Assembly: GCA_029572955.1 (NCBI GenBank)
Contig: JAKPQE010000031.1
Location: forward strand, 1 to 52,382
DNA: 52,382 nucleotides
DNA from: Pseudomonadota bacterium
GTDB taxonomy: Bacteria > Pseudomonadota > Alphaproteobacteria > Rhizobiales > JAKPQE01
Direction: 5' to 3'
This document shows, piece after piece, positions 17,854 through 21,579 of this stretch. Positions within the stretch are counted from its first letter, which is position 1. Every line of letters begins with the position of its first letter. The notes under the pieces were generated by a model, which worked only from the letters and a program-made list of their open reading frames with translations, ran no database searches and had not been told where the DNA came from. The translations under genes and the position numbers were made by a program.

Positions 17854-19212
17854 ATGAGCTACACCGTCGCCATCGTGGGGCGGCCGAATGTCGGCAAATC
17901 CACGCTTTTCAACCGTCTCGTCGGCAAGCGCCTGGCGCTCGTCGACGACACGCCGGGCGTGACGCGCGACCGGCGCGAGGGCGAGGCGCGCCTCGGCCCC
18001 CTCACCTTCCGCATCATCGACACCGCCGGCCTCGAGGAAGCCGAGGCCGAGAGCCTCACCGGGCGCATGCGCGCCCAGACCGAGGCGGCGATCGCCGATG
18101 CCGACCTGACGCTGTTCCTCATCGATGCGCGCGCCGGGGTGACCCCGGTCGACGCGCATTTCGCCGACCTCATCCGCCGCTCCGACAAGCGCGTGCTGCT
18201 CGTCGCCAACAAGGCCGAGGGGCGGCCCGGCGAGGCCGGCTATTACGACGCCTTCTCGCTCGGCTTCGGCGAGCCGATCCCGATCTCGGCCGAGCACGGC
18301 GAGGGCCTTGCCGATCTCGCCATCGCCATCGAACAGGACATGCTGGAGGCCGGCATCGCCGACGACGACGAGGACGAGGCGGAGGACCGCGATCGCCCGG
18401 TGTCGATCGCCATCGTCGGGCGGCCGAACGCCGGCAAGTCGACGCTCGTCAACCGGCTGATCGGCGAGGAGCGGCTGCTGACCGGTCCGGAGGCCGGCAT
18501 CACCCGCGACTCGATCACCATCGAATGGGAATGGCGCGGCCGCCGGGTGCGCCTCGTCGACACCGCCGGCATGCGCAAGAAGGCGCGCGTCCAGGAAAAG
18601 CTCGAAAAGCTCTCGGTCGCCGATGCGCTGCGGGCAATCCGCTTCGCCGAGGTCGTCGTCCTCACCCTCGATGCCTCGATCCCGTTCGAGAAGCAGGACC
18701 TGCAGATCGCCGACCTCGTCGAGAAGGAAGGCCGGGCGATCGTCGTCGCGCTCGACAAGTGGGACGTCATCGAGGACCGCGGCGAGACGCTGAAGACGTT
18801 GCGCGAGGAGGCCGAGCGGCTGCTGCCGCAGCTTCGCGGCCTCACCATCGTGCCGGTCTCGGGCCTCACCGGCGAGGGCCTCGACAAGCTGATGGCGGCG
18901 ATCTTCTCGACCCACGACGTCTGGAACCGCCGCATCCCGACCGCCAAGCTCAATCGCTGGCTGGAAGGCGTGATCGAGCATCACCCGCCGCCGGCGGTCT
19001 CCGGGCGCCGGCTGAAGATCCGCTACATGACGCAGGCGAAATCGCGCCCGCCGACCTTCGTCGTCTTCTGCTCGCGGCCGGACGCCCTGCCCGACGCCTA
19101 CCGGCGCTATCTCGTCAACGGCCTGCGCGACACCTTCAAGCTGCCCGGCGTGCCGCTGCGGCTGATGCTGCGCGGCGGCGAGAACCCCTATGTGAAGAAG
19201 GACGGCCGCTGA
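17854..19212 (+). CDS. der: Ribosome biogenesis GTPase Der (EngA)
   Basis: A 452-residue GTPase with two tandem G domains that helps 50S subunit maturation. The first P-loop is GRPNVGKST (near residue 9) and the second GRPNAGKST (near residue 190). Both G3 motifs DTAGL and DTAGM and NKAEG/DKWD-type G4 motifs are present. The two domains are joined by an acidic linker ([13 protein letters not shown]). A KH-like domain forms the C-terminus. cysQ begins by a TGATG overlap at the stop. All motifs are intact. Confidence 0.97.
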
Positions 19213-20030
19213 TGCCGGTGTCGCCGCAGCTCGCCGACGGCATGATCACCGCCGCGCTCGCCGCCGGCCGGGCGATCATGGCGGTCTACGCCACCGACTT
19301 CGAGGCCCGCGACAAGAGCGACCGGACGCCGGTGACGGAGGCCGACGAGACGGCCGAGGCGATCATCCTCGAGCATCTCGCCCGGCTCGCGCCGGAGGTG
19401 CCGGTCATTGCCGAGGAGTCGGTCGCGGCCGGGCGCATCCCGGAGATCGGCAAGCGCTTCTTCCTCGTCGATCCGCTCGACGGCACGCGCGAATTCATCG
19501 GCCGGCGCGACGAGTTCACGGTCAACATCGCCCTCATCGAGGATGGCCGGCCGCTCGCCGGCGTCGTCTACGCCCCGGCGCTCGGGCGGCTCTTTGCCGG
19601 AACCGAGGGCGGCGCGGTCGAGTTCGAGATCGAGGATTTCCGGCTCGGCACCGCCCGGCCGATCGCCGTGGCACGGCCCGGCAGCCCGCTGCGCGTCGTC
19701 GCCAGCCGCTCGCACCGCACGGCCGAGACCGACCGCTTCATCGCCGAGTATCCGGGCGCCGAGACCGTGTCGGCCGGCTCGTCGCTGAAATTCTGCCTCG
19801 TCGCCAGCGGCGCCGCCGACCTTTATCCGCGCCTCGGGCGGACGATGGAATGGGATACCGCGGCCGGCCACGCCGTGCTCGCCGGCGCCGGCGGCATCGT
19901 CGTCAAGGCCGACGGATCGCCACTTGACTACGGCCGGGCCGAACAGGCAAACGAGACGCCGTTCGCCAATCCCTGGTTCTTCGCGGCGAGCGACAGCGCG
20001 CTGATCGAACCGGGCCGGGCGGTTCTCTAG
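19212..20030 (+). CDS. cysQ: 3'(2'),5'-bisphosphate nucleotidase CysQ
   Basis: A 272-residue member of the inositol-monophosphatase superfamily. CysQ removes the 3' phosphate from PAP, the by-product of PAPS use, or from PAPS. The metal-site motif [10 protein letters not shown] (near residue 90) and the C-terminal [10 protein letters not shown] are characteristic. The ATG shares one base with the der stop (TGATG), implying coupling. The gene 133 bases downstream encodes an APS kinase fusion, consistent with a sulfate-activation and recycling unit. HisN-like activity on other phosphates cannot be excluded. Confidence 0.9.
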
Positions 20031-20163: not shown

Positions 20164-21579
20164 ATGACCGACACCACGTCACCGACATCCGTTCCGGGAA
20201 AGCTGCTGATCGTTGCGAGCGATGCCGCGCTCGGCGAGACGGCGGCGGCCGAACTGCGCGGCGGCGCAGAGTTCGGCGACGCCGAAATCGCGATCGCGAC
20301 CACCGGCGACCGGCTTGATGCGGCGCTCGTCGCGGCCATCGCCGAGGCCGATGCCGTCGCCATCGTCACCGACGCGGCGCGCGGCTGCACCTTCGATCTC
20401 AGGACCGCGATGGTGGTCGCGGCAACCTCCGGGCTCGCGCGCCTCGTCGTCGCGGTCGGCCGGCTCGACCGACTGCCGCGGGCCGACGAGCGCTTCGAGG
20501 CGATCCGCGGCGACGTCCTCGCCTTCGAGGCCGGCTTTGCCGACGTCGACTTCCACGTCGTGCCGATCGGCGGCGCGGCGCTCGGCTGGGAATCGGTCGA
20601 CACGCTCGCCGGGGCGCTGGCGGTGCCGGCGCACGGCACCCCCGCCGCGCTCGCGCCGGATCATGCCGACCAGTTCTCGGCCCATGTCGTGTGGACGGGC
20701 GCAGCGCCGCTGCTGCCCGGCCGGCGCTACGACCTGACGATCGGCAGCCGCACCGTCGCGGCGACGGTCACCGACCTCCGGCACCGGCTCAACGTCTTCG
20801 ACCTCAGCCATCTCGCGGCGCGCCGGCTGCAGCAGGAGGACATCGGCCTCGTCAATCTTTCGACCGCCGAGGCGATCGATTTCGCCCCGGTCGGCGAGGA
20901 CCGGCCGATGGGGACGTTCCGCATCGCCGAGGCCGGCGGCGGCGCGACCCTCGCCTACGGCTTCATCCGCTTTGCCCTCAGACGCGCGACCAACCTCGCC
21001 TGGCAGGGGCTCGACGTCGACAAGGCGGCGCGACGCACGCTGATGGGCCAGCGCGCCTGCGTGCTCTGGTTCACCGGCCTTTCCGGCTCCGGCAAGTCGA
21101 CGGTCGCCAATCTCGTCGAAAAGCAGCTGCATGCCCGCGGCCGCTTCACCTACATCCTCGACGGCGACAATGTCCGCCACGGCCTCAACCGCGACCTCGG
21201 CTTCACCGAGGCCGACCGCGTGGAAAACATCCGGCGGGTCGGCGAGGTCGCCAAGCTCTTCGTCGATGCCGGGGTCATCGTGCTCGCCGCCTTCATCTCG
21301 CCGTTCCGGGCCGACCGGCGGATGGCGCGCGACCTCGTCGGCGATGGCGAGTTCCTCGAGATCTACATGGAAACGCCGCTCGACCTGTGCATCGCGCGCG
21401 ACCCGAAGGGGCTCTACAAGAAGGCGCTGGCCGGCCAGATCAAGAACTTCACCGGCCTCGATTCACCCTACGAGCCGCCGGAGCGCTGCGAGATCACGCT
21501 GGCGACCGCCGGGGCGAGCCCGGAAGAGCTGGCGAGCCGCGTCATCGCGCAACTGGAAGCGAGCGGCTATCTCGCCTGA
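20164..21579 (+). CDS. Adenylylsulfate kinase (CysC) fused to a degenerate CysN-like domain
   Basis: A 471-residue protein. The C-terminal part (about 290-471) is a complete APS kinase: P-loop GLSGSGKST (305-313), [26 protein letters not shown] and [13 protein letters not shown]. The N-terminal part resembles ATP-sulfurylase subunit CysN, but the GTPase has no P-loop. The segment [13 protein letters not shown] and the position of NKMD, here GRLD (near 99-102), mark the remnant. Residues 171-260 ([19 protein letters not shown] onward) match the CysN C-terminal barrel. Ordinary CysN-CysC (NodQ) proteins are about 630 residues. The kinase should make PAPS; the N-terminal role is unknown, and no cysD is adjacent. 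Confidence 0.9.

Follow-up and report, generated by a model that had tools for sequence, protein, structure and literature searches.

The two halves of the protein

The question raised by this locus is why an APS kinase (CysC) carries in front of it a CysN-like half in which no GTPase motif can be read. The gene, at 20164..21579 on the plus strand of the window (the whole stretch of 52,382 nucleotides that was analysed), starts with ATG, has GAGGAG upstream, and codes for 471 residues which by profile matches are a degenerate CysN remnant fused to CysC. The kinase half, residues 284-471 (21013..21576, plus strand), was recognized by profile, motif, and structure. Residues 297-446 match APS_kinase (PF01583) at 3.6e-68 with 228.8 bits against a cut-off of 21.1, and TIGR00455, the profile for APS kinase, gives 250.2 bits against a cut-off of 138.7. 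The P-loop of CysC and the residues of its lid, among them KGLY, are intact, and the columns that are invariant across 38 relatives include G305, S307, G310, K311, D333, G334, and D335. With this match and these motifs the kinase half is complete, as an earlier note on this DNA had claimed, and we infer from its sequence that it phosphorylates APS to PAPS, the activated form of sulfate in the cell.

The earlier note had described the rest of the protein as a retained but non-catalytic CysN shell and had proposed a search with a CysN HMM, a structure prediction, and a survey of the genome for an intact cysD-cysN pair. By profile and predicted structure, residues 7-160 (20182..20643, plus strand) are what remains of the GTPase domain of CysN, without the P-loop, switch I, and NKxD, and directly after them comes the well conserved beta-barrel of CysN domain III, residues 163-270 (20650..20973, plus strand). 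The C-terminal barrel that had been seen by eye is therefore there, since residues 163-268 match CysN/EF1A domain III in TIGR02034 and in PF22594 (8.6e-15). The GTPase domain is matched only weakly and only in its back half (about residues 57-138; PF00009, 0.0015, below cut-off). The three-domain architecture of CysN is not found because domain II is wholly missing, so that the G-domain remnant runs into domain III. The score with TIGR02034 is 89.5 bits against a cut-off of 336.1, and that with NF004035, the profile for bifunctional CysNC, is 399.1 against a cut-off of 715 bits, the best stretch being 163-467. None of the motifs G1, G3, and G4 is present; at the NKxD position sequence comparison places GRLD (residues 99-102; 20458..20469, plus strand), just as the earlier note had read it, and its statement that the P-loop is absent was also right.

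The whole protein was modelled with AlphaFold2 on an alignment of 38 homologues. The model has a mean pLDDT of 88.9 but a pTM of 0.60, too low for it to show how domain III packs on the kinase. In this predicted model residues 1-270 align with CysN (1zun_B) over 268 residues with Z 23.1 and rmsd 4.2, and the N-domain alone (about residues 1-160; pLDDT 84.7), which has an alpha/beta fold, has 1zun_B as its top PDB match by both programs with Z 15.6; both of the alignments used for modelling included homologues with intact GTPase domains, so that the agreement with CysN is partly expected. Together with the PF22594 match these results argue for common descent with CysN. In the model strand 13-18 and helix 21-33 are only 2 residues apart, and in the predicted fold the phosphate loop is collapsed with no room left. 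Judging from its position right after strand 13-18, and from the intact form in relatives, the probable site of the lost P-loop is SDAALGET (residues 19-26; 20218..20241, plus strand) in place of GSVDDGKS, and it seems that the position is kept as S19-DAAL-GET26, with GKS changed to GET. Since the isolated N-domain, residues 2-160, models as a CysN GTPase domain, the CysN-derived part would begin near residue 7-13. The likeness to CysN that had been noticed earlier was thus real, but it had been made to start at a later segment, and the modelled start lies ahead of it. The non-catalytic shell as such is supported by the degenerate motifs, the CysN-like predicted fold, and the lack of cysD described below.

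Could an error in assembly or sequencing mask an intact CysN? The assembly is a draft and an aprA gene of the same genome has one in-frame stop, which would suit such a reading. However, only 133 bp separate the ATG from cysQ, the gene for the 3'(2'),5'-bisphosphate nucleotidase of PAP recycling (19212..20030, plus strand), no start codon lies in frame beyond the ATG, and a P-loop was found in none of the reading frames. An alternative start or a frameshift that restores the P-loop, the finding that the earlier note had named as fatal to its claim, is thereby ruled out. Codon usage of the N-part is normal, with a third-position G+C of 0.89 against 0.92 in CysC, and because these values match, the CysN remnant looks translated. 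Moreover, the same kind of loss is found in independent genomes, and error is a scarcely credible explanation. The position of cysQ just upstream on the same strand, also noted earlier, was confirmed. It is adjacent to the fusion in G012, G018, G059, and G095 as well, but as a special mark it was dropped because an intact fusion, that of G041, also has it nearby and most degenerate fusions lack it as a neighbour.

Sulfur genes of the genome

The window is contig C86 of the genome G000, a draft of 3.76 Mb in 182 contigs. No cysD had been seen beside the gene, and none was found anywhere in the assembly as a TIGR02039 or PF01507 match; with the draft 98.7% complete, this absence is very likely but uncertain. 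There is no PF01507 protein at all in G000 and hence no CysH, whereas 14 of 14 control genomes have one. The genome searches also gave no second CysN, no intact cysN, and no other CysC, so that the intact cysD-cysN pair did not turn up and a second cysN or cysC, or a cysD, elsewhere in the assembly is ruled out. What G000 does have is a full-length Sat on contig C132 (3.1e-88), divergent from genes for two HdrA/QmoA-like flavoproteins and HdrC/HdrB-like proteins (qmoAB/hdr-like; named by reading), and aprB-aprA on contig C91. By this gene set G000 would oxidise sulfur and run Sat in the direction from APS to ATP. A case for comparison is A. vinosum, which, however, keeps cysDN for assimilation (PMC3779200), whereas no cysDN was found in G000.

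The aprA on C91 (L042:3186-5769) is interrupted by a single in-frame TAG, part of a second aprA is found at C42:7104-8393, and a Sat C-terminus at the end of C91 has 64% identity over 44 residues to the copy on C132. These duplicates on C91 and C42 are either two apr/sat sets or contamination (3.6%).

G000 retains APS kinase and CysQ without CysH, and sulfotransferases of PF13469, PF00685, and PF09037 were not found in it, which removes these three families as users of PAPS there; most other genomes with a degenerate fusion do have sulfotransferases. A specialised PAPS supply, which had been suggested for this gene, is possible because there is no CysH, but the three sulfotransferase families are missing as well.

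CysN decay and CysD loss across the order

We searched 199 genomes of the order with the fusion protein, CysD (TIGR02039), and Sat (PF01747), and read the loci of CysD-negative genomes of two kinds, 16 in which some of CysN is left and two in which only CysC is (G036 and G049), and of about 70 CysD-positive genomes. CysD-negative genomes with a distant (about 40%) or possibly Sat-fused CysC, for example, G014, G047, G097, G125, and G166, were left unread, and G192 was excluded because the gene reaches the contig end and cysD cannot be placed. CysN was degenerate in all 16 of the examined CysD-negative genomes that retain CysN sequence, while G1 and G3 were kept in 65 of the 67 readable fusions of CysD-positive genomes (a strict motif pattern counts 62, to which G009, G019, and G065 were added, G1 and G3 being intact on reading). 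The raw Fisher value for degeneracy against CysD loss, 4e-13, is overstated as the rows are related. In G089 and G123, which make up the exceptions, cysD is encoded apart from the fusion and adjoins an intact cysN that stands alone, and because of these genes their fused CysN would have been redundant. Both states occur within each of five genera or families, and which genome has which follows the presence of cysD: G006 against G093/G057, G012 against G060/G096, G043 against G083/G117, G167 against G031/G074, and G022/G162 against G068/G103. As far as these loci tell, degenerate CysN without CysD is the rule across the order and not a one-off. Two further candidates were rejected, namely, a Burkholderiales match (L031), which is an intact CysNC, and G119 as a degenerate CysD-positive case, in which the contig ends inside cysN.

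What is left of CysN differs from lineage to lineage. G006 still has DNVDDGKS, DTPDH, and EKID but switch I is deleted; G012 keeps the P-loop and NKMD, and switch I is gone because the distance from G1 to G3 is 50 residues instead of the normal 79; G043 keeps NKMD and has lost the P-loop; and G016, G025, G037, and G046 have lost all motifs. Domain II is kept and the G-domain gone in G167 and G162, domain II is gone and the G-domain partly kept in G000, G022, G059, G062, and G095, and little beyond domain III is left in G018 and G048. Domain III is present in 16 of 16 CysD-negative remnants, and no other conserved stretch is common to them. In G036 and in G049, the latter of the same family as G000, CysC has no CysN part, that of G049 being a bare CysC of 205 residues.

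Sat and aprA, each over its cut-off, are present in all 16 CysD-negative degenerate genomes. No PF01507 protein is present in 13 of the 16, and G006, G018, and G037 have weak to moderate matches, some of them beside sat. The constant company of Sat and AprA is what one would expect if the remnant docks Sat (or AprBA) and hands APS to the kinase, the substrate channelling that the earlier note had considered. We nevertheless hold this to be highly improbable because the retained parts vary by lineage, with no common conserved stretch except domain III, and because G089 and G123 have a degenerate CysN-CysC with neither Sat nor aprA over cut-off. In addition, Sat is unrelated to CysD, so that an inherited docking surface is not expected, CysD, the partner that would feed APS, is absent, the shell evolves far faster than the kinase, and G049, in the family of G000, has a bare CysC. 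The channelling proposal thus found no support.

Two features of the surroundings were recorded. The degenerate CysN-CysC of G089 (L036), G059 (L034), and G095 (L035) lies among apparent sugar-nucleotide and surface polysaccharide genes (by reading, epimerase, WecA/MraY-like, and UDP-sugar dehydrogenase), hinting at polysaccharide sulfation. Sat also occurs in open frames of 564-756 residues (G125:C1:3697786, G166:C29:35660, G047:C134:2824, G036:C60:70069, and G112:C128:48983), which are probably Sat-CysC or similar fusions and thus an alternative architecture in the same order.

An early stage is seen in G006, which is congeneric with G093 and G057, both of which combine Sat and CysD with an intact fusion. 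Of cysD in G006 only the last 33 residues are left as a relic right before cysNC, at the place where the cysD of G093 ends, and the switch I region of cysNC has lost 70 bp. Between G006 and G093 dN is 0.139 in the CysN part and 0.012 in the kinase, about 12 times faster. Rates were compared by dN ratios only, synonymous sites being saturated in many pairs. The ratio of the CysN part to CysC has a median of 1.14 (0.67-2.27) in 20 intact pairs and of 3.69 (2.18-12.06) in 6 pairs with a degenerate member, and that of domain III to CysC is 1.07 in intact and 2.22 in degenerate pairs. These rates are what relaxed constraint on CysN and continued constraint on CysC would predict, and by them domain III appears to be the slowest-decaying part of CysN. 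The pair G038 (L099) and G143 (L101), both with Sat and CysD, has an intact CysN that evolves 2.3 times faster than CysC, the top value among intact pairs, and is possibly an early stage of relaxation.

It could be argued that the CysN shell was repurposed as a nucleotide-free oligomerisation or regulatory domain of the kinase, and the presence of domain III in every CysD-negative remnant at only about twice the rate of CysC, the modelling of the N-part with pLDDT near 90 and CysN as best match, and the dead APS-kinase domain that is retained in the ATP sulfurylase of filamentous fungi (PMC3779200) are in its favour. We consider this unlikely, as the retained parts vary by lineage, the remnant of the G-domain changes at 2-12 times the rate of CysC, G036 and G049 have no CysN part, and CysC domains dimerise and function without it (PMC4373884). 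The compact modelled fold and the slower domain III mean that the remnant may have some retained role. The wider proposal that repeated CysD loss gave a pseudo-GTPase-kinase, whose shell, chiefly domain III, is kept for a nucleotide-independent structural or regulatory role in PAPS synthesis of sulfur oxidisers, is doubtful, with about one chance in a handful in its favour.

In a tree of domain III plus kinase with 83 rows, the best tree has 8 changes of state for degeneracy, of which at least 4 are forced by supported branches. There are 4 independent pairs on supported branches and all go the way that was predicted, but at p 0.125 this number is too small to be significant on its own. The best tree puts G000 among intact sequences, although the data are also compatible with its grouping with the main degenerate clade (p-AU 0.45).

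Probable replacement of CysDN by Sat

The GTPase of CysN drives CysD (PMC1780047), and isolated CysC is an active dimer without CysN (PMC4373884). We think it probable that Sat replaced CysDN, that the GTPase half was left without a job and is decaying, and that only the kinase works. The ancestor would have been an ordinary CysNC (NodQ-type) fusion partnered by CysD, in a lineage that gained the unrelated ATP sulfurylase Sat together with genes for dissimilatory sulfur oxidation (aprBA and qmo/hdr-like). With the subsequent loss of cysD the sole known job of the CysN GTPase would have gone, and the GTPase half would since have lost the P-loop, switch I, NKxD, and the entire domain II, its reading frame being held open because the kinase lies downstream. 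At present, APS from AprBA or Sat would be converted to PAPS by the CysC half at the expense of ATP, GTP would be neither bound nor hydrolysed by the fusion protein, and PAP would be recycled by the neighbouring CysQ. Domain III would have been kept longest, probably, and this is a guess, by packing on or stabilising the kinase or its dimer.

Compared with CysNC/NodQ of M. tuberculosis (CysNC) and S. meliloti (NodQ), the protein of G000 has the same order of CysN and CysC and a homologous domain III and kinase, but not the P-loop, switch I, NKxD, domain II, or a CysD partner. The predicted fold of its N-half is like that of CysN in P. syringae CysDN (1zun_B) apart from the lack of domain II and a collapsed nucleotide loop. 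With stand-alone CysC (A. thaliana APS kinase 1; 3uie/4fxp) it shares 58% identity, Z 30, and all catalytic motifs, and it adds a CysN-derived N-terminus of 270 residues. A mirror image is the ATP sulfurylase of fungi and yeast, which carries a degenerate APS-kinase domain at its C-terminus and so keeps a dead domain on a live enzyme after fusion (PMC3779200). In that enzyme the kinase is the dead part and the sulfurylase the live one, with a regulatory role of the dead domain in filamentous fungi, whereas in the protein of G000 it is the GTPase that is dead and the kinase that seems to be alive.

A full-text literature search, with most subscription papers outside its scope, brought up no account of a CysNC whose GTPase is dead. 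The widest earlier survey that it found kept only proteins with intact G1, G3, and G4 and would for this reason have dropped the remnants (PMC1780047). The protein departs from the known forms of CysNC, and it is best explained as a vestige from the replacement of CysDN by Sat. An annotation as bifunctional CysN/CysC is accordingly no proof of GTP-driven sulfate activation, and the P-loop needs to be checked. The order offers a natural, repeated experiment on the fate of a fused enzyme half once an unrelated enzyme has taken over from its partner. G006 offers an early stage of decay, G012 and G043 a middle one, and G000, G048, and G049 a late one, and it is the repetition of the pattern that makes decay upon loss of a partner directly testable.
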